Part shown: positions 7,688 through 56,735 of the stretch, piece by piece
Layout: every line of letters begins with the position of its first letter
Position numbering within the stretch: position 1 is the first letter of the stretch
Source of the DNA: Rhodoplanes sp.
Lineage (GTDB): Bacteria; Pseudomonadota; Alphaproteobacteria; Rhizobiales; Xanthobacteraceae
Assembly: GCF_013377085.1 (NCBI RefSeq)
Contig: NZ_JACAAX010000009.1
Span: forward strand, 1 to 64,000
Direction: 5' to 3'
Length of the DNA: 64,000 nt
The notes under the pieces: generated by a model
The model's database searches: none
Seen by the model: the letters and a program-made list of their open reading frames with translations, nothing else
What the model was told of the DNA's origin: nothing
Position numbers and translations under genes: made by a program

Positions 7688-9718
7688 ATGAGTACCTTGA
7701 AAATTCGGATCGGGACGAAGATCGCGCTGTCGGCAGCTCTCAGCGTGCTGCTGATTCTCGGTATGATCGCCTATCAGCAAATCAGCAACGGCAATGTCGG
7801 GCAGACGGACGCGGCTGCCGACATCCAGCGGGGGATTTCGGAATCCACCGCAACTGCCGAGACCGGGCTGCGGCGGATGGAGGCGACGTTCCGCGACATG
7901 CGGGGCGCCCGCACCTCCAAGGATGTCGCAGCCGCCGAGGCGGCGCTGCGGACGGCTTTCGCCAGCGTGACCCGCCATCTCGACGGCGCGGCCGCCGCGA
8001 CCGACGTCGCTTCGCATCGCGACCTGCTCGCCCGCAGCAAGGCGCTGGTCACTCAGTACGCCGAGTCCGCCTTCGAGCTGGCGCGGCGCGAGACCGAGTA
8101 TTTCGACACGCTGCTGCCCAACCGCAGCAAGGCGGCCGTGCAGTGGAACACCATCTTCGAGTCCCTGCTCGCCACGCCCGAGATGTCCCGCCGCAGCGCC
8201 ATGGACGTCAAGGCGGAGCTGTGGAAGGCCTATTCGGTGTTCAATGCGGCGCGCTCGGCGATGTGGCGCTACGCCGCCCTCGGCGAAGCCGAGCAGCAGA
8301 CCCTCGCCGCCAAGGAGATCGCCGACGCCACCGCCCTGGTCCAGAACGCCCAGGACATGATGAGCGAGACCACCTCGGTCGCGCTCGCCGACGAGCTCCT
8401 GCGCTTCGCCGCGACCTACAAGGAGATCAGCGAAGCGGCCATGAAGGCCGAGGACGCCAATACGAAGCTGGTCGCCGAGCGGATGGAGCCGGTGGCGGCC
8501 GAGGCGGTCGCGCTGATGCAGGAGGCCGTCAAGGAGACCCGGGCGAGCGCCAGGGCGGCGACCGCCAGCGCGGCCGATCAGCTCTCCCAGTCCGGCCGCA
8601 TGGGGCTCATTCTCGGGCTGGTGGTCGTCCTCGTCCAGCTCGGCGCCGCCGTGTTCGGCAACGTCTCGGTCGGCCGGCCGATCCGCCGCATCGGCGAGGT
8701 GCTGGCGGCGCTGGCCGGCGGCGACAAGACGGTCGCGATCCCCTATGTGACCCGCCGCGACGAGGTCGGCGACAATGCCCGCGCCGCGCAGATCTTCAAG
8801 GAAAACCTGATCCGCATCGAGCGCGTCGAGAGCGAGCGCCGGCAGGTCGAGGCCCGCTCGGCGACGGAGCGTGCCGCGACCATGCAGGCGCTGGCAGGCG
8901 AGTTCGAGCGCGCGGTCGGCCACATCGTCGAGACCGTGTCGTCGGCCGCGAGCGAGCTCGAGGCGGCCTCGGGCAGCCTGACGACGACGGCCGAGACGAC
9001 CCAGCGGCTTTCGACCACGGTGGCGGCGGCCTCGCAGCAGGCCTCGGCCAATGTCCAGACGGTCGCCGCGGCGACCGCCGAGCTGACCGCCTCGGTCGAC
9101 GAGATCAGTCGTCAGGTGGGGGAATCGACGCGGATCGCCGGCGAGGCCGTGAAGCAGGCCGAACGGACCGACGGCCGCATCGGCGAATTGTCGCTTGCCG
9201 CCGGCCGTATCGGCGACGTGGTGAAGCTGATCACGGCCATCGCCGAGCAGACCAATCTGCTGGCCCTCAACGCCACCATCGAGGCGGCCCGCGCCGGCGA
9301 GGCCGGCAAGGGCTTCGCCGTGGTGGCCCAGGAGGTGAAGGCGCTGGCGGCGCAGACCGGCAAGGCGACCGGCGACATCTCGGCGCAGATTTCCGGCATG
9401 CAGGCGGCGACGCAGGATTCGGTCGCCGCCATCAAGGAGATCGGCGGCACGATCGGCAGGATCGCCGAGATCGCGTCCGCCATCGCGGCGGCCGTCGAGC
9501 AGCAAGGGGCGACCACGGCCGAGGTATCACGCAACATCCAGCAGGCCTCGCACGGCACCACCGAGGTCGCCCGCACCATCGGCGAGGTCAGCCGCGGCGC
9601 CGGCGCCACCGAGACCGCGTCCGAGCAGGTTCGCGGCTCCGCCTCCCTGCTCGCCCGGGAGGGCAACCGGCTGAAGACCGAGGTCGCCAAGTTTCTGCAG
9701 ACCGTGAGGGCTGCCTGA
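7688..9718 (+). CDS. Methyl-accepting chemotaxis protein, array member 1
   Basis: 676 aa membrane chemoreceptor. TM1 is at about residues 9-30, then a long helical periplasmic region of about 270 residues with no Cache-type motif (probably helical-bundle), and TM2 at about 305-325 ([17 protein letters not shown]). A HAMP domain with [17 protein letters not shown] follows. The MA signalling domain has the conserved hairpin tip [19 protein letters not shown] and [11 protein letters not shown]. It ends in KFLQTVRAA, with no CheR/CheB-binding pentapeptide. The start at 7688 was preferred over 7676 because it has GGAA just upstream and opens with the family-like [12 protein letters not shown]. First of eight same-strand receptors; 83 bases separate it from the next. 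Confidence 0.92.
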
Positions 9719-46331: not shown

Positions 46332-47738
46332 CTAAAGAGCGACACCGGCGCCCGCGAGAATCCCGCGCACCCGCGCCCGCTGCTCGTCCGAGATGGTCAA
46401 CCGCTCGGCAAAATCCTTGCCGAGCGGTCGCGTCGCATCGATGCCCATCTTGGTCAGCGTGAAGGTCTGCGGGTCGGAGGTCGGGTCGAGGATCGCGCCC
46501 TTGCAGCCCGGGATGAGCACGATGTCCTGCTCGGCGCGCACCCTTGTCGCCACCGCCCACATCACGTCGTTCATGTCGAAGATGTCGACGTCCTCGTCCA
46601 CGACGATGACGTACTTGGTGTAGAATTCGGTGCCGAGCGCCGCCATGATGGCCTGCTGCGGCTCGCCCTGGGCGGTCTTCCTCATCTTCACGAAAGCCAT
46701 GAAGGCGCCGCAGGTGGTGTGCGGCACGTGCACGGCAATGACGTTCGGCAGGTTCCGCCGCAGCGTGTTGAGGATCTCGCCCTCGCGGGTGATGCACGAC
46801 ACCAGTATGTGGTCCTTCGCCATGCCCGAGGCGACCGAGTGGAACATGGCGTCGCGTCGCATGCGCACGCGCTTGGCGACCAGCACGTTCTGGGTGCTCC
46901 GATACGAGGCGTAGCCCGTGAACTCGCTGAACGGGCCTTCCGGCTCGTGCACGCCGGGCAGGATCTCGCCCTCGATGACGATCTCGGCGCCGGCCGGCAC
47001 GGCGAGGCCGTCGATGCCGGTCGGGGCGAGCCAGTAGGGCTGCCCGAACAGGCCGCCGATGATCTCGAACTTTCGCACGCCGGGCGGATAGGCGTAGACC
47101 ATCGAGCCCATGTAGTGCAGCGGATGGATGCCGAGCGTGACGGCGACCGGCAGCGCCTCGCCGCGCTCCTCGGCGCGGCGATGGAACTCCCACATGCGCC
47201 GGCGCGAGTGCAGCGACACGCCGAGCCGGTTCCTGCCCTTCAGCATCAGCCGGTGGAAGCCGGTGGTGTCGACGCCCGTCACCGGATCGCGGGCGACGAT
47301 CTGGCCCGCCGTGATGTAGGGCGCCGCATCGACCGAGAAATGCACCGGGATCGGCAGCGCTCCGAGGTCGACGTCGTCGCCTTCCAGCGTCACCTCGTGC
47401 CAGGGGGCTTCGTCGACCAGCTCGCACGGAATGTAGGTCTGGCAACGCTCGCGAAAGGCGGTCGGCAGATCCGCCGGCTCGACGCCGAGGCAGGCGGCGA
47501 GCAGCCGCCGGTTGCCCGTCGTGTTGGTGACGACCGGCATGGCGTGGCCCTCGACGTTGTCGAACACCACGACGGGGCTGCGGCCGGTCTTTTCCAGCTC
47601 GAGCACCAACGACGTGATGTCGAGCTTGGTGCGCACCGGCGCGCGGATGCGCAGCAGCTCGTCCGGGAACCTCTGCTCGACCATGCGCAGAAATCCGCGG
47701 AGACCCTGGCTGTCCAGCGGCGACATCTTTGGCGGCAT
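46332..47738 (-). CDS. UbiD-family prenyl-FMN-dependent decarboxylase
   Basis: 468 aa. Core motifs: FHRLMLKGRNRLGVSLH (Arg of the prFMN site), LGIHPLHYMGSM and EGPFSEFTGYAS, the latter holding the two Glu of the catalytic EGPFxE motif known from Fdc1/UbiD. The metal/prFMN site therefore looks intact. UbiD enzymes reversibly decarboxylate aromatic or unsaturated acids; this one is closer in pattern to aryl-acid or gallate-type members than to ubiquinone UbiD, but that is an inference. No ubiX flavin prenyltransferase is near, so prFMN must come from elsewhere. Start is ATG 47738 or 47726. The cyclase-like gene and the dctPQM transporter lie upstream. Confidence 0.88.
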   Translation of the reverse strand: MPPKMSPLDSQGLRGFLRMVEQRFPDELLRIRAPVRTKLDITSLVLELEKTGRSPVVVFDNVEGHAMPVVTNTTGNRRLLAACLGVEPADLPTAFRERCQTYIPCELVDEAPWHEVTLEGDDVDLGALPIPVHFSVDAAPYITAGQIVARDPVTGVDTTGFHRLMLKGRNRLGVSLHSRRRMWEFHRRAEERGEALPVAVTLGIHPLHYMGSMVYAYPPGVRKFEIIGGLFGQPYWLAPTGIDGLAVPAGAEIVIEGEILPGVHEPEGPFSEFTGYASYRSTQNVLVAKRVRMRRDAMFHSVASGMAKDHILVSCITREGEILNTLRRNLPNVIAVHVPHTTCGAFMAFVKMRKTAQGEPQQAIMAALGTEFYTKYVIVVDEDVDIFDMNDVMWAVATRVRAEQDIVLIPGCKGAILDPTSDPQTFTLTKMGIDATRPLGKDFAERLTISDEQRARVRGILAGAGVAL

Positions 47739-47822
47739 TGCGGGAGAGGACCTGTTTCGGGGGGCAGTATCAGTGCAGTCGAGCAGATGGCCGGACGACA
47801 CGCAAGCCGTGCCCGCAGTCCG

Positions 47823-49559
47823 TCAGCCTTGGATGAGGTTCCTGGCGGCCGCCGCCGCGTGCCGCACCCGATGGCTCCACGTGGCACCGTCCGACGCCCA
47901 CGCGACGGTGTCCAGAAGATAGACCGGAAGAGGCACGATCGCCCGGTCGTCGGCGGCGGCGTCCGCGTCCGACGCGCCAGCAGGCGTCCAGCCGGAGGAG
48001 GTGCGTGTCAGCCGCAGTGCCGGCTCGGTCGGCGGCGGCAGCCCGGCGGCCGCAATCACCGGCCCCGAGACCGCGAACGCCTTGCCGGCCGCGATCACGG
48101 CCCGGCGGATCGCCTCGGCGGCGTCGAGCGCCTCGCCGGCCGCCACGATCGTTCCGGTGTGCCCGACCCTGCCGAGTGCCGCGCGGCCCGCATGCAGGCT
48201 GACCACGATGTTGGCCTGGCAGCCCCATTCGGCGCCGAGCCGGGAATTGAGGTCGGCGAGCGACTGCTCGATGCCGGCGGTGGTGGCGAGCGCCGCGCGG
48301 CTCGCGCGCTCCACACCGGTGTCCAGCCCGAACACGGCGCAGATGCTGTCGTGTTCCACATAGCTCACCGTGCCACCTGCGGCGACGACGGCGTCGCAGG
48401 CCGTCTCGGCATGGCGCGTGAAGGCGAACAGCACGTCGTGGGCGAGATGATCGCGCGCCAGCGTGGTGCGGTTTGCGAAGTCGCAGAACAGCAGCACCAC
48501 GGTCCGGTCGTTGTCGATCGCCACCGGCGTGCTGCGGTAGACCGGCCGGTCGGTGCGGACCAGCGGGACCACGGAGACGTCGCGATCGGGCCGAAGCTGG
48601 CAGGCCAGCCGTACCTCCGGTGGGGCGGCGATGCGCGCCAGGGTCGCGCGTTCGATCGCGGCGGGCGGCGGGCAATCGCCGGACACGACGCGGACCCGGC
48701 AGGTCGAGCAGCGGGCGCGCCCCCCGCAGCTCGACGCATGGGCGACGTGGAAGGCACGGCTGGCGTCGAGCACCGACCAGCCGCGCGGCACCGTCACGGT
48801 GCGGTTGGGATACGCGATGGTCACCAGCTTGCGGCCGCGCCGCTCGATCATGTTGCGGACGGAACGCGCCGCGACCGCGAACCCGATGAGTCCCAGATAG
48901 CCGCCGAGCAGGTCCTCGCGCCAGCGGTTCAGGGTGGCGCGCGCCTCCTGCGTCGATGCGGCGACCGGCGCGGGCGGCCCGGCCCGGGCGAGGTCGCGGC
49001 CCATGGCGAGGAACCCGAGCGCCGACAGGACCGGAAGCAGCAAGGCGACGGCGAACAACGGCAACTGGAGCCGGCGCCACACCGGCCGATGACCGAACGC
49101 CAGCCGCAGCCCGAGACAGCCGTGCAGCCAGCCGGGCGCCAGCAGGCCGATTTGCCGCCATTCGGAATTCGAGGCCCACAGGCCGGTGACGACGCGGTGA
49201 TAGGTGGTCGGGGAGCCGACCAGCTCGAACTCCAGGCGCGCCGTGACCGCGTGTCCGATCAGCAGCACCGGGAGCCACAGCCCGAGGCCGATGCGCAGCA
49301 GCTCGATCGGCGGGAGCCGGAAGGTGCGGCGGACATAGATCGCCTCGATCGCCAGCGTGACGTGGACGGCCGCCGCGGCATAGAGGACGACGGTCCCGAC
49401 CGGGCCGCCCCAGAACTCCACCGAGAAGACCAGGGCCGCCTCGGCCGTGTCGAGCGAGACGAGGCCGAGCGCGTGGTTGGCGAGATGCGTTCCCACATAG
49501 CCGAACAGGATCAGGCCCGAGGCCAGCCGGAGGTCGCGGCGGCTGATGTGTGGGAGCAT
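47823..49559 (-). CDS. Membrane/[2Fe-2S]-ferredoxin/class III cyclase-like fusion
   Basis: 578 aa. (1) N-terminal membrane part with about five or six spans to about residue 240, containing His pairs in the membrane zones (FGYVGTHLANHALG, AAAVHVTLAI, LLIGHAVTA, GWLHGCLGLRLAFGH), consistent with a haem-b anchor as in CyaC-type cyclases. (2) A plant-type [2Fe-2S] domain with CGGRARCSTC (Cys 278, 284, 287) and a later LACQLRP. (3) A cyclase-like C-terminal domain with the metal Asp in LLFCDFANRTTL and YVEHDSICAVFG. Key changes: the usual GG.V.K..GD reads GGTVSYVEHD, and the Asn/Arg transition-state motif is not seen (AGEALDAAEAI). It may be inactive or atypical. Between dctM and ubiD. Confidence 0.75.
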   Translation of the reverse strand: MLPHISRRDLRLASGLILFGYVGTHLANHALGLVSLDTAEAALVFSVEFWGGPVGTVVLYAAAAVHVTLAIEAIYVRRTFRLPPIELLRIGLGLWLPVLLIGHAVTARLEFELVGSPTTYHRVVTGLWASNSEWRQIGLLAPGWLHGCLGLRLAFGHRPVWRRLQLPLFAVALLLPVLSALGFLAMGRDLARAGPPAPVAASTQEARATLNRWREDLLGGYLGLIGFAVAARSVRNMIERRGRKLVTIAYPNRTVTVPRGWSVLDASRAFHVAHASSCGGRARCSTCRVRVVSGDCPPPAAIERATLARIAAPPEVRLACQLRPDRDVSVVPLVRTDRPVYRSTPVAIDNDRTVVLLFCDFANRTTLARDHLAHDVLFAFTRHAETACDAVVAAGGTVSYVEHDSICAVFGLDTGVERASRAALATTAGIEQSLADLNSRLGAEWGCQANIVVSLHAGRAALGRVGHTGTIVAAGEALDAAEAIRRAVIAAGKAFAVSGPVIAAAGLPPPTEPALRLTRTSSGWTPAGASDADAAADDRAIVPLPVYLLDTVAWASDGATWSHRVRHAAAAARNLIQG

Positions 49560-49720
49560 CGACGGCCTGTCGCTGGTGACGTTCGATCGGGTCCTTCTTA
49601 TCGGCTTTTACCGGCGACGCGCGGACGCGCCGGTGCGGCGCTTTCAAATTCCCGTGACGGCGCTCGAGATCCGGACGGTCTCGCGCCGCGAGGCGATGCT
49701 CCGAAGCGCTTCGAGCGATC

Positions 49721-51073
49721 CTACAGGTTCGGCAGGAAAGTCGCGATCTGCGGGAATGCCGCGATGGCGATCACCACGGCCAGCAGCACGATCCAGTACG
49801 GGATCGAGCCGCGGAAGATCTCGGCGAGCTCGACCGACCTGTCCGGCACCGCCGCCTTGACGGTGAACACCAGGATGCCGAAGGGCGGCGTCAGCAGGCC
49901 GGTCTCGATGGCCAGGATGCCGATGATGGCGAAGGCGAGCGGGTCGAAGCCGAGATGGACGGCGATCGGCGCGAAGATCGGCACGGTCAGCAGGATGATC
50001 GAGATCGAATCGATCAGGCAGCCGAGCACGAACCAGATCGCCACCATCACGGTGAGGATGCCCCACGGCCCGAGTCCGGTCGACAGCAGGAATGCCTTCG
50101 CCACCTCGGTGAAGCCGGTCATCGACAGCACGCGCGAGTAGAGCTGGGCGCAGAACAGCAGCAGCAGCAGCGGCCCGGAGGTGCGGCCGACGTCGAGCAC
50201 CACCTCGCGGATCTCGCGCGGCTTGATGCCCTTGATCAGCGCCAGCGCCAGCGCCCCGACGGCGCCGACGCCGGCGCCCTCGGTCGGCGTGCAGAAGCCG
50301 AGCCAGATGGCGGCCAGCACGCCGATCACCAGCACGACGACGAGGCCGGTGCTGCGCAACAGCGGGCCGATCGGCTCCTCGTTCGGTAGTCCGGTGCCTG
50401 CCTCCGCGACCGCCACGCCGGCCGCACGGGAGGTCACGCGCGGCGAGCCGCCGGCGATCTCCGGGTTCAGCTTGGCGGCGATCACCACATAGACGATCAT
50501 GCCGCCGGCCGCGATGAACCCGGGGATCACCCCGGCCAGGAACAGCTTGCCGATCGACACCTCGGTCAGCACGGCCCACACGATCATCAGCACCGACGGC
50601 GGGATCAGCATGCCGAGACAGGCGCTGCCGGCGACGCAGCCGAGCGCGAAGCTGCGCTTGTAGCCGTAGCGCATCATCTCCGGATACGCGATGCGCGAGA
50701 AGGCGGCCGCGGCCGCGATGCTCACGCCGGTGACGAAGCCGAACAGCGCGTTCGAGATGATGGTGGCGACGGCGAGCTGGGCCGGCAGCCATTTGCTGAA
50801 GCGGTGGCCGAGCGCGTAGAGGTCGCGCGCGGCGCCGCATTTCGCCAGCAGGTCGCCCATCAGCATGAACAGCGGGATGACGGCGAAGACGTAGTCGCGC
50901 AGCGCCTCGTAGGCCGTGTTGGAGACGAAATTCCGCACCACGTCGACGTCGCCGAGCATCAGCCAGATGCCGAACGCCGCCGTGATGCCGAGTGCGATGG
51001 CGATGTGCACGCCGGCGAACACCAGCACCAGCACCAAGGCGATGACGATCAACATGTCGCTGTTGCCGAGCAA
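49721..51073 (-). CDS. dctM: TRAP transporter large permease (DctM)
   Basis: 450 aa, fully hydrophobic with about 12 spans. Starts MLGNSDMLIVIALVLVLVFAG and carries DctM features: GVHIAIALGITAAFGIWL, PLFMLMGDLLAKCGAARDLY, GCVAGSACLGMLIPPSVLMIV and the end PPFGILVFTVKAA. Secondary Na+-driven uptake of carboxylates with the DctQ/DctP partners encoded next to it in order P-Q-M. A region of about 60 polar residues between spans (about 225-260) is longer than usual. The substrate cannot be read. Confidence 0.93.
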   Translation of the reverse strand: MLGNSDMLIVIALVLVLVFAGVHIAIALGITAAFGIWLMLGDVDVVRNFVSNTAYEALRDYVFAVIPLFMLMGDLLAKCGAARDLYALGHRFSKWLPAQLAVATIISNALFGFVTGVSIAAAAAFSRIAYPEMMRYGYKRSFALGCVAGSACLGMLIPPSVLMIVWAVLTEVSIGKLFLAGVIPGFIAAGGMIVYVVIAAKLNPEIAGGSPRVTSRAAGVAVAEAGTGLPNEEPIGPLLRSTGLVVVLVIGVLAAIWLGFCTPTEGAGVGAVGALALALIKGIKPREIREVVLDVGRTSGPLLLLLFCAQLYSRVLSMTGFTEVAKAFLLSTGLGPWGILTVMVAIWFVLGCLIDSISIILLTVPIFAPIAVHLGFDPLAFAIIGILAIETGLLTPPFGILVFTVKAAVPDRSVELAEIFRGSIPYWIVLLAVVIAIAAFPQIATFLPNL

Positions 51074-53040: not shown

Positions 53041-53664
53041 TCACAGCCAGTCGCGATCGACGCCGGCGCCGGCGAGCATGCCGGCGAGCTTCTTGCGCGC
53101 ATAGAACAGCCGGGTCTTGACGGTGTTCTCCGGGATATTGAACACGCGGGCGACCTCGGCCACCGACTTCTCGTGATAATAGACGAGGTCGACGATCTCG
53201 CGATGGGTCGAGGGCAGCGCCTCCAGGCAGCGACGCAGGATGGCGGCGCGGTTCCGCTTCTCCAGCGTCACGTCCGGCGTGTCGCAGCCATCCTCGATCT
53301 GGGCGGCCTTCTCGTCGTCGATCGACTCGGTCGGCCGGCGGCGCAACACCGCATAGGCCTTGTGGCGGGCGATCGCCAAGAGCCAGGTCGACACCGCCGA
53401 GCGGCCCTCGAACTGGCCGGCCTGGCGCCAGGCGTCGATGAAGACGTCGCTGATCACGTCCTCGGCCTGGGTGCGGTCGCCCAGGATGCGCAGGACGAAG
53501 CGGAACACCCGCACGTGGTGGCGCGTGTAGAACGCCTGCAGGGCGGCACGGTCGCCCTCCGCCATCCGGGCCATCAGGCCGGCATCGGTCGGAGCCTTGG
53601 CGCTCGTGGTGGCCGGGCGGCGATCGGCCCCGTTCACTCTCGGCAGCGTAAAAACGGTGGACAT
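53041..53664 (-). CDS. ECF-type RNA polymerase sigma factor
   Basis: 207 aa. Sigma region 2 (about 40-105) shows LQAFYTRHHVRVFRFVLRIL, AEDVISDVFIDAWRQAGQF and STWLLAIARHKAYA. Region 4 (about 145-195) shows LPSTHREIVDLVYYHEKSV, AEVARVFNIPENTVKTRLFY and RKKL. Start ATG 53664 has GGAGGT 4 bases upstream; the frame is open much further but is unlike a sigma factor there. No anti-sigma gene is visible within 1 kb on either side. Regulon unknown. Confidence 0.92.
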   Translation of the reverse strand: MSTVFTLPRVNGADRRPATTSAKAPTDAGLMARMAEGDRAALQAFYTRHHVRVFRFVLRILGDRTQAEDVISDVFIDAWRQAGQFEGRSAVSTWLLAIARHKAYAVLRRRPTESIDDEKAAQIEDGCDTPDVTLEKRNRAAILRRCLEALPSTHREIVDLVYYHEKSVAEVARVFNIPENTVKTRLFYARKKLAGMLAGAGVDRDWL

Positions 53665-54677: not shown

Positions 54678-54922
54678 GTCGTTCGTCCGGTCTCCGTGGG
54701 GCGACGGCGTTTCCGCGTCGCGGCGCAGTCTGGGAGAAGTAAGCCATGACCGGCGGCCGCCGCCAAGTCGGGTCGCATCCAAGTCGGGTCGCATCGCCGT
54801 CGGCCTTGGCCTCTCGGCGTATGGACGTTTTCGCCGGCGCACGGTATTGCGCCAGCCGGACACTGCGCCGGCAGGCCGGCCGCCGCAGGACACAATGGGC
54901 CATCACGGGGAGGCGTGGACAC

Positions 54923-55762
54923 GTGCAGCAGGCCGCAACCGGCGCGGACGCGGCGGCGTCTCCCTGCGCCGTGCATCTCGCCGACCTCACCATCGCGTTC
55001 CGGCTCGCCGACCGTTCGACCTTCACGGCGGTGCGCGACGCCTCGCTCAGCGTCGCCGACGGCGAGTTCGTCGCCATTGTCGGCCCGACCGGCTGCGGCA
55101 AGTCGACCCTGCTCAACGCCGCCGCCGGACTTCTGGTGCCGGCCACCGGAACGGTCGAGATTTTCGGGGCGCCGCTTGTCGGCCTCAACCGAACGGCCGG
55201 CTACCTGTTCCAGGCCGACGCGCTGTTTCCGTGGAAGACCTCGCTCGAGAACGTCGCCATCGGGCTCGAGGTCGCCGGCACGCCGAGGCAGGAGGCGCGC
55301 GACGAGGCCGCGGCCTGGCTGCGCCGGGTCGGTCTCGGCAGCTTCGGCGACCGCTATCCGCACATGCTCTCGGGCGGCCAGCGCAAGCGCGTCGGCCTCG
55401 CCCAGGTGCTGATCCGCCACCCGAAGATTCTTCTGATGGACGAGCCGTTCGGGCCGCTCGACGCGCAGACGAGGCAGATCATGGGCAACCTGCTGCTCGA
55501 GCTGTGGAGCGCCGACCGCAAGGGCGTGATGTTCGTCACCCACGATCTCGAGGAGGCGATCGCGCTCGCCGACCGCGTCGTGATCATGTCGGCCGGGCCG
55601 GCGGCGCGCATCATCGGCGACTGGACGATTCCGCTCGCCCGACCCCGCGAGGTCGCCGAGATCAAGCTCGACAAGGCGTTCCACGATCTGCACCGCGAGA
55701 TCTGGGCCATGCTGCGCGACGAGGTGATGAAGGGCTACGTGCAGACCGGGGGCTTGGGATGA
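54923..55762 (+). CDS. ABC transporter ATP-binding protein (nitrate/sulfonate/taurine class)
   Basis: 279 aa from GTG 54923 (GGGGAGG upstream). Walker A GPTGCGKSTLL, Q-loop FQADALFPWKTSLENVA, signature LSGGQRKRVGLAQ, Walker B ILLMDEPFGPLD and H-loop VTHDLEEAIALADR. The FPWKT and DEPFGPLDAQTR stretches are those of SsuB/TauB/NrtD-type importers. The permease lies downstream, separated by a paired-palindrome repeat. No periplasmic binding protein gene is in the window, so substrate cannot be named. Confidence 0.92.
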   Translation: MQQAATGADAAASPCAVHLADLTIAFRLADRSTFTAVRDASLSVADGEFVAIVGPTGCGKSTLLNAAAGLLVPATGTVEIFGAPLVGLNRTAGYLFQADALFPWKTSLENVAIGLEVAGTPRQEARDEAAAWLRRVGLGSFGDRYPHMLSGGQRKRVGLAQVLIRHPKILLMDEPFGPLDAQTRQIMGNLLLELWSADRKGVMFVTHDLEEAIALADRVVIMSAGPAARIIGDWTIPLARPREVAEIKLDKAFHDLHREIWAMLRDEVMKGYVQTGGLG

Positions 55763-55787
55763 CGCCGGCTGCCGTGCATTCAGAGCC

Positions 55788-55880
55788 GTCATGCGCGGGC
55801 TCGACCCGCGCATCCATCGACTGCGCAAGAAATGCTTCTTTCACAAGACGATGGATCGCCGGGTCAGGCCCGGCGATGAC
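55788..55880. repeat. Paired-palindrome repeat inside the ABC-transporter operon, copy 7
   Basis: GTCATGCGCGGGCTCGACCC... and ...GGGTCAGGCCCGGCGATGAC with the subfamily-B leader GCATTCAGAGCCGTCATG. It sits in the 184-base space between the ATPase and permease genes, where such repeats can affect mRNA decay. The long frame reading through it (MRGLDPRIHR...) is an artefact. Confidence 0.85.
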
Positions 55881-55946
55881 TTCGGAGAAGGTGGCGAGCG
55901 CGTTGCCTCCGATCAGATTACGCTGGCCGCGCGCAGGAGCCCAAAA

Positions 55947-56735
55947 ATGTCCCGCCTGACTCTCCTGACGCTGCAGATCCTGGTCGCGGTCGTGGTGATC
56001 GGCCTGTGGCAGGTGCTCACCAGCGTGCCGATCTTCGGCACCGTGCTGCTGCCGCCGTTCTTCTTCTCGCGGCCGCTCGACGTCGCGCTGCGCATCGTCA
56101 AGTGGTTCGCCGACGGCACCATCTGGGTGCATCTGTGGATCACGCTGACCGAGTCGGTGCTCGCCTTCGTGATCGGCTCGCTCGGCGGTGGGCTGGTCGG
56201 CTTCTGGTTCGCGCGAAAGCCGCTGATCGCCGCGGTGTTCGATCCCTATGTCAAGATGATCAATGCGCTGCCGCGCGTCGTGCTGGCGCCGATCTTCGCG
56301 CTGTGGCTCGGCCTCGGCATCTGGTCGAAGGTGGCGCTCGGCGTCACGCTGGTGTTCTTCGTGGTGTTCTTCAACGTCTATCAGGGCGTCAAGGAGGTGA
56401 GCCCGACCGTGCTGGCCAACGGCCGCATGCTGGGGATGAGCGAGCGCCAGCTCATGCGCCACGTCTACTGGCCCTCGGCGCTGTCCTGGATGTTCTCCTC
56501 GCTGCACACCTCGGTCGGCTTCGCCGTGGTCGGCGCCGTGGTCGGCGAGTATCTCGGCTCCGCCGCTGGGCTCGGCTATCTGATCCAGCAGGCCGAGGGC
56601 GTGTTCGACGTCGCCGGCGTGTTCGCCGGCATGGTGGTGCTGGCCGCCTTCGTGATCGTCATCGACATGCTGGTCAGTATGGTCGAGCGCCGCCTCCTGG
56701 TGTGGCGCCCGATGGCGCACGACGCGCACGGGTGA
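55947..56735 (+). CDS. ABC transporter permease (SsuC/TauC class)
   Basis: 262 aa from ATG 55947 with AGGAG upstream. Six membrane segments; the binding-protein-dependent transport domain covers about 90-250, with the EAA-like loop region KEVSPTVLANGRMLGMSERQ and PRVVLAPIFALWLGLG. The frame open to 55791 translates the upstream repeat and is rejected as start. It is followed after 10 bases by the extensin-like gene, so they may share a transcript. Confidence 0.92.
   Translation: MSRLTLLTLQILVAVVVIGLWQVLTSVPIFGTVLLPPFFFSRPLDVALRIVKWFADGTIWVHLWITLTESVLAFVIGSLGGGLVGFWFARKPLIAAVFDPYVKMINALPRVVLAPIFALWLGLGIWSKVALGVTLVFFVVFFNVYQGVKEVSPTVLANGRMLGMSERQLMRHVYWPSALSWMFSSLHTSVGFAVVGAVVGEYLGSAAGLGYLIQQAEGVFDVAGVFAGMVVLAAFVIVIDMLVSMVERRLLVWRPMAHDAHG

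Follow-up and report, generated by a model that had tools for sequence, protein, structure and literature searches.

The window analysed here is a 64,000-nucleotide stretch of a Rhodoplanes sp. genome (contig NZ_JACAAX010000009.1, positions 1 to 64,000). On its minus strand, an open reading frame at 47823-49559 that starts with ATG and runs for 578 codons encodes a 578-residue protein, in which a di-haem-type membrane anchor, a [2Fe-2S] ferredoxin domain and a degenerate class III cyclase-like domain follow one another. The anchor (residues 7-241; 48837-49541, minus strand) shows six long helices in a structural model and carries five invariant histidines, His25, His29, His66, His103 and His146, whose minus-strand codons start at 49487, 49475, 49364, 49253 and 49124, respectively. 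The ferredoxin domain (residues 245-332; 48564-48827, minus strand) holds Cys278, Cys284, Cys287 and Cys320. The cyclase-like domain spans residues 350-513 (48021-48512, minus strand), and is followed by a C-terminal tail (residues 514-578; 47826-48020, minus strand) where model confidence is low in part.

The upstream neighbour, separated by a gap of 161 bp, encodes the TRAP transporter large permease DctM (49721-51073, minus strand; Pfam DctM), and the downstream neighbour encodes a UbiD-family decarboxylase (46332-47738, minus strand; Pfam UbiD), with a likely ATG at 47738, 84 bp away. Pfam assigned the five neighbouring genes examined to three TRAP subunits, UbiD and a racemase-family protein; none of the five is a flavoprotein or iron-sulphur subunit gene of a succinate/fumarate:quinone oxidoreductase. 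Elsewhere in the window we noted an ECF sigma-like ORF (53041-53646), with a putative relation to the ECF genes found at other loci of the branch defined below. We also noted an ABC transporter ATPase and permease (54746-56732) that match a pair at one of these loci (L063:12129-13786; 46% and 41% identity), genes of a common kind whose match may be due to chance.

At E 1e-10, the gene was not found in five congeners, one of which is represented by a genome 58% complete. In two of these congeners, G001 and G002, ubiD comes next after dctM, the matched parts being about 170 and about 310 bp apart, and the gene is missing; where they have this short gap, the window holds, within 47739-49720, the 1.7-kb gene. 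Its GC content is 72.9%, compared to 64-70% in its neighbours. Since congeners lack the gene and its GC content lies above that of its neighbours, it was probably gained in the window species or lost in sister species. Only short imperfect repeats were found at the gene borders. A ferredoxin-like DNA match near the TRAP genes of a third congener, G003, was discarded, as the ORF that contains it looked by eye like a transporter. The sequence-only reading had found the position of the gene beside TRAP and UbiD genes unusual. Pfam confirmed these neighbours, but they are a weak clue, because congeners keep the operon without the gene. Moreover, in the stretches retrieved around 12 of the 13 remaining branch loci (all but L029; the stretches are very unequal in length), no called ORF matched the window's TRAP or UbiD proteins. 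We thus rejected the TRAP/UbiD setting as a strong clue to function: the place of the gene in this operon is probably a matter of chance, given that two congeners have the operon without it. A DctM-like ORF (32-35% identity) was seen about 2.5 kb from L073, one of the bare anchors described below.

The sole Pfam listing for the protein was Fer2 (residues 252-324, E 9.8e-10), and the Pfam cyclase model gave no listing for its cyclase-like domain. In the AlphaFold model, pLDDT was 91.1 for residues 7-241 and 87.7 for the full length. The fold of the anchor resembles that of quinol:fumarate reductase cytochrome b subunits (W. succinogenes, D. gigas), with VIA-align Z-scores of 12.4-13.1 over 179-194 residues at 13-16% identity, although helical bundles can score about 13 from arrangement alone; one succinate dehydrogenase subunit scored 10.6, and the next unrelated row 5.2. 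Foldseek retrieved 1e7p_C for the anchor at a probability of 0.97 but an E value of 0.55. The top structural matches of the full-length model were class III cyclases, 1wc3 and other soluble cyclases. A profile built from the cyclase domains of 41 relatives matched the window domain at E 2.4e-26, whereas the best of 200 shuffles reached 0.028, and a profile of six close members matched solved cyclases, the best being 2w01 (E 3e-9). On the strength of the 41-relative profile and the structural matches, the cyclase-like domain is, as judged from alignment and model, a true homologue of class III cyclases. PADLOC models for the Pycsar uridylate cyclases (PycC) also matched the domain (E 6e-7). The same models matched three active-looking relatives better (E 4.8e-19, 5.6e-21 and 5.5e-18), and a Pycsar identity was rejected as a generic match; none of the three neighbouring ORFs submitted to PADLOC matched, the direct neighbours being DctM and UbiD.

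The arrangement of these modules is an established one. CyaC (SMc01818) of Sinorhizobium meliloti binds two haems b that are oxidised or reduced by ubiquinone, and a [2Fe-2S] cluster is indicated for it in a figure legend (PMC10463352). As far as the passages available from that paper describe CyaC, the likeness to the window protein lies in the di-haem b membrane domain, the [2Fe-2S] cluster and the class III cyclase part. By the same description CyaC makes cAMP, whereas the window protein lacks the catalytic Asn and Arg as well as the base-selecting residues. In 30 class IIIb adenylate cyclases of alpha- and betaproteobacteria, too, the cyclase domain is preceded by a ferredoxin, and this in turn by an anchor that resembles fumarate reductase and carries four spaced histidines (PMC4821796). 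These ferredoxin-associated proteins (cluster 1 of PMC4821796, including R. palustris Q132R4) have, by description, the same layout as the window protein; the passages available from that paper present cluster 1 as adenylate cyclases and name no catalytically depleted branch. Passages on inactive cyclase domains were likewise not found in the available part of PMC2447327. More generally, we found no published report of dead ferredoxin-type cyclases, which is weak evidence as the open-licence literature is far from complete. Thus, the sequence-only reading of a two-cofactor redox sensor holds for the haem-type histidines and cluster cysteines, by homology, but the layout was already known from CyaC and the class IIIb cyclases. 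What sets the window protein apart is its catalytically depleted branch.

This branch was delimited by searching 60 related genomes, 391 genomes from the family and 397 from the order, together with a scan of the genomes of 84,980 species, giving at least 80 loci. It comprises 14 proteins, the window protein among them, whose sequence extends into the cyclase domain; they come from Xanthobacteraceae, other alphaproteobacteria and betaproteobacteria, Variovorax sp. dw_308 (L067) being one of the carriers. Some are partly cut or masked: L055 and L065 reach a contig end, and L060 starts at one and contains masked bases. The 41 relatives with which they were compared have the same layout and are mostly best matches (201 of the 391 family genomes matched), many of them close kin. 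Before counting, we dropped a fragment (L018/L023), two single-domain matches (L019 and L020) and L024, which is the same gene as L017; L002, L027, L028, L030 and L031 were also dropped, as length and identity led us to take them as L056, L054, L055, L061 and L066, respectively. L064, L066 and L068 were counted apart from the 14, and L124, L128, L130 and L132 were excluded from the counts of bare anchors. An order-wide search at E 1e-95, a cut-off that would miss distant members, returned only the window's own genome among the 397. A plasmid search gave 169 records, all below 60% identity and, among the matches listed, mostly annotated as cyclases. L059 comes from a record titled as a Bordetella parapertussis MAG, a doubtful name: its protein is nearly the same as that of L068 from a betaproteobacterial MAG.

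The redox ligands do not vary between the two sets: the five membrane histidines and four cluster cysteines are invariant in all 14 branch members and all 41 relatives. The catalytic sites differ. In the window protein both metal sites are occupied by aspartate (Asp360 and Asp404), while Tyr400 stands at the Lys site, His403 in place of the Gly preceding Asp404, Val472 at the Thr site, Asp479 at the Asn site and Ala483 at the Arg site; the base-selecting pair (Lys or Gln, with Thr) is consequently missing. The equivalent residues in the 41 relatives are mostly Gln or Lys, Gly, Thr, Asn and Arg. The replacement of the Lys and Gly before the second metal Asp, pointed out in the sequence-only reading, is therefore real, but the Lys change alone says little because 32 of the 41 relatives have Gln there (6 have Lys). 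The same reading saw no Asn-Arg pair, and we agree: in addition to Asp479 and Ala483 at the expected sites, there is no Asn-x3-Arg in residues 345-530, which rules out a shifted pair in this domain. Off-site matches to this motif occur in four other branch members (L055, L029, L061 and L060).

Across the branch, the transition-state Asn is absent from all 14 proteins (Asp in 10, Glu in 3, Leu in 1) and present in 41/41 relatives; the Arg is found in 3/14 versus 40/41, and the base-selecting Thr in 2/14 versus 39/41. Both metal aspartates are present in every relative. In the branch, 11 of the 14 have the first and 5 the second, which is Glu in 6, so that the retention of both, correctly noted for the window protein, does not extend beyond 4/14 (the window protein, L056, L029 and L063). 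At least one metal aspartate is replaced in 10/14, which bears on the suggestion of the sequence-only reading that the domain may bind nucleotide. If Glu is allowed, both metal sites are acidic in 9/14, and metal binding would still be conceivable where the second site is Glu. The branch also has residues of its own. Position 431 is Glu in 12/14 and Asp in a thirteenth, compared to mostly Ala in the relatives; position 479 is Asp or Glu in 13/14, compared to Asn in 41/41; position 485 is Arg in 12/14, compared to Gln or Glu in 41/41. These derived states are common to alpha- and betaproteobacterial members, and Asp375 and His456 are kept in all 14. With neither the transition-state Asn and Arg nor the base-selecting residues left, no cAMP synthesis is expected of the window protein. 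This had been suggested before, and the residue losses support it, at the level of sequence, for the branch of 14 as well; the accompanying suggestion of another product has the derived acid/Arg pair (479, 485) as its sole basis. The Gln at the usual Lys base-recognition site of active-looking relatives (e.g. L005 and L032) also means that standard motif scans could misjudge such proteins. A second cyclase of the window genome, L026 (G000:C8:117729-118235), has Ser at the transition-state Asn site and keeps the Arg and both metal aspartates.

In a tree of the membrane domain (23 of the 41 relatives and 20 of 59 bare anchors sampled), a branch supported at 100/99 separated the 23 active-looking proteins from all others: the 14 branch members, the 20 bare anchors and three relatives that stop at the ferredoxin or are cut by a contig end; the 14 and these three relatives grouped together at 84/87, a node that was not starred. 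The two other modules were analysed with 13 of the 14 branch members and 21 of the 41 relatives. The cyclase domain, stripped of nine catalytic and signature columns, split the two sets at 97/98 with some long branches, and the ferredoxin alone set the branch apart at 92/86, a node without a star and flagged for long branches. When the cyclase tree was rooted with three other cyclases, 10 branch members nested among active-looking ones (87/75); this tree contained 16 of the 41 relatives and left aside L060, L062, L065 and L067 as masked or long-branched. This nesting favours a loss, and cyclase activity, as read from the residues, was probably lost once in the branch from an active ancestor. 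By the same rooting, the bare anchors would have lost their ferredoxin and cyclase parts, the root of the membrane tree itself having no independent support.

The fate of the domain after this loss was addressed by comparing rates. Among active-looking pairs with 50-60% identity in the membrane domain, mean identity in the cyclase domain was 69-72%, whereas it was 40-41% in alphaproteobacterial (8 pairs) and 33-34% in betaproteobacterial branch pairs (6 pairs) of the same membrane identity; the pairs are not independent, and L010, L014 and L021 were excluded. The dN/dS ratio of the cyclase-like domain, computed with a simple method and, for some pairs, on nearly saturated synonymous sites, was 0.15-0.47 in seven alphaproteobacterial branch pairs (0.23 for the window protein and L054). 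It exceeded that of the membrane domain in 5 of these 7 pairs and stayed below 1 in all, while in five active-looking pairs it was below that of the membrane domain each time. The domain is thus under relaxed yet purifying selection in the branch. Plain decay is further argued against by the conservation of Asp375 and His456 and by the derived states at 431, 479 and 485 shared between alpha- and betaproteobacteria.

The neighbours of other branch members differ from those in the window. At L063, the branch gene ends at 8539, and a same-strand pair encoding the alpha and then the beta subunit of a Rieske ring-hydroxylating dioxygenase begins at 8572; the branch member, about 30 bp before this pair (L063:8572-10367), could be its electron donor. 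The vicinity of L058 and L059 contains cytochrome c and b561 genes, and that of the branch loci L058 and L067 contains ECF sigma genes. Such sigma genes were seen near branch members or bare anchors at L058:5362-6719, L064:464-1201, L067:11495-12828 and L079:7883-9482, and at some of these places a gene from another shared cluster sits alongside. Genes recognised by eye as resembling ParA and peptide synthetases were found repeatedly, but solely in a group of four close branch loci. Across the branch as a whole, we saw neither a recurrent regulator gene nor a recurrent gene for a redox partner, the dioxygenase being a neighbour at one locus. In the 1.5-kb flanks of 38 active-looking relatives, inspected by eye, a cold-shock-type gene was found at 18 loci and no TetR-like gene recurred, and a conserved TetR partner resembling CycR, the regulator of CyaC, was rejected. 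Around branch loci and bare anchors, genes were called with a simple, error-prone script based on GC frame, which put even the L063 gene in the wrong place.

Some 60 bare anchors, mostly of about 250-300 residues, have neither ferredoxin nor cyclase parts (among the matches listed). They come mostly from Paraburkholderia and relatives and are 38-51% identical to the window membrane domain over the aligned part; of the 59 counted, all have the histidine at four of the sites and 58 have it at His103. An intermediate size is found in the betaproteobacterial L064 (1989-3050), where the protein stops after the ferredoxin: the next called ORF is about 245 bp away, and no match to the cyclase profile was found in the six frames of this locus. 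As placed by script, a metallophosphatase gene flanks 25 loci; at 23 of them it is divergent and within about 1.1 kb, and the remaining pair includes the branch locus L058. A cupredoxin gene flanks 18 loci. As the loci come mostly from one genus, this association may be plain synteny. The divergent arrangement of a bare anchor with metallophosphatase and cupredoxin genes, as at L131:5027-6358 and L131:6953-7723 and at similar loci among L074-L123, hints at an envelope electron-transfer unit. In several Rhizobiales (L073, L092, L096 and L126), the bare anchor adjoins opposite-strand genes that by eye look like lipoyl synthase and, at three of these loci, dihydrolipoyl dehydrogenase.

Taken together, these observations suggest that the window protein is a catalytically dead descendant of CyaC-type redox cyclases whose output would no longer be cAMP and would most likely be the redox-dependent docking of a partner, a reading to which we give a little under an even chance. 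The anchor would hold two b haems that exchange electrons with the quinone pool, and would hand electrons on to a cytosolic [2Fe-2S] domain, both steps being suggested by the homology to CyaC and the conserved ligands. The cyclase-like domain would hold its class III fold, as modelled, and make no cAMP, as its residues imply. The redox state would then be read out by this folded domain docking a partner, with binding that changes with redox, as general reasoning suggests. There is a precedent for such docking, since the binding of CyaC to CycR needs no nucleotide (PMC10463352). The presence of both metal aspartates in the window protein would count against a dead cyclase. One could instead suppose that the domain is still an enzyme, its active site rebuilt around the acid at 479 and Arg485 so as to make or hydrolyse some nucleotide. 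The near-uniform replacement of Asn and Gln/Glu at these positions would fit such a rebuilding, as would the first metal Asp in 11/14 and the acidic metal sites in 9/14, but with both metal aspartates in just 4/14, and with the domain diverging more quickly than the redox modules, as an enzyme domain typically would not, we regard a rebuilt enzyme as very unlikely. In mammalian adenylyl cyclases, C1 pairs with C2. A half-catalyst of this kind, pairing with another cyclase that supplies the missing residues or poisoning that cyclase, would make sense of a window protein that has the metal half without the other half, and the genome does encode two other Pfam cyclases, of which L025 keeps the canonical residues. 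Its chance is nevertheless very slight: the metal half is not kept in most of the branch, and no second match to the whole protein was found in the genome at E 0.01, hence no obvious paralogous partner. It is the poor conservation of the metal aspartates in the branch that makes both catalytic readings less likely.

A close alternative, quite possible if not probable, is that the protein serves electron transfer, its haems and cluster linking the quinone pool to a redox partner and its cyclase-like domain being a leftover, at most used for dimerisation or docking. Strict conservation is indeed limited to the redox modules, and L064 ends after the ferredoxin. Rieske-type ring-hydroxylating dioxygenases need an electron donor, and those encoded directly downstream at L063 are perhaps the partner; the window gene adjoins a UbiD-family decarboxylase gene, and the cupredoxin and metallophosphatase genes often found beside Paraburkholderia bare anchors and the cytochrome genes near L058 and L059 point the same way. 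It is the bare anchors with the same histidines, adjoining the branch on the membrane tree, and the position of L063 ahead of the dioxygenase genes that would favour electron transfer over docking. Against it, the cyclase-like domain is in frame, modelled as folded, under purifying selection and marked by a signature of its own, and the dioxygenase is the neighbour of a single branch locus. The dead-cyclase reading with a docking output remains the one we prefer. A broader proposal, possible but rather doubtful, is that the lineage gave up cAMP and rebuilt the domain (Glu431, acid 479, Arg485) as a redox-gated docking module that switches partners or passes on quinone-pool electrons, while a neighbouring lineage discarded its output domains and left a bare membrane cytochrome.

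CyaC is a membrane cyclase whose physiological input, the redox state of quinone, is known. A branch that keeps this redox input and drops the enzyme thus offers a direct test of whether the anchor signals or carries electrons. If it signals without cAMP, the branch would be a natural separation of sensing from catalysis and would back the view, put forward for CyaC, of the protein as a scaffold; should it instead supply an oxygenase, a sensor would have been turned into a redox chain. A cyclase-like fold in this family need not mean cAMP, which should be borne in mind when such proteins are annotated.
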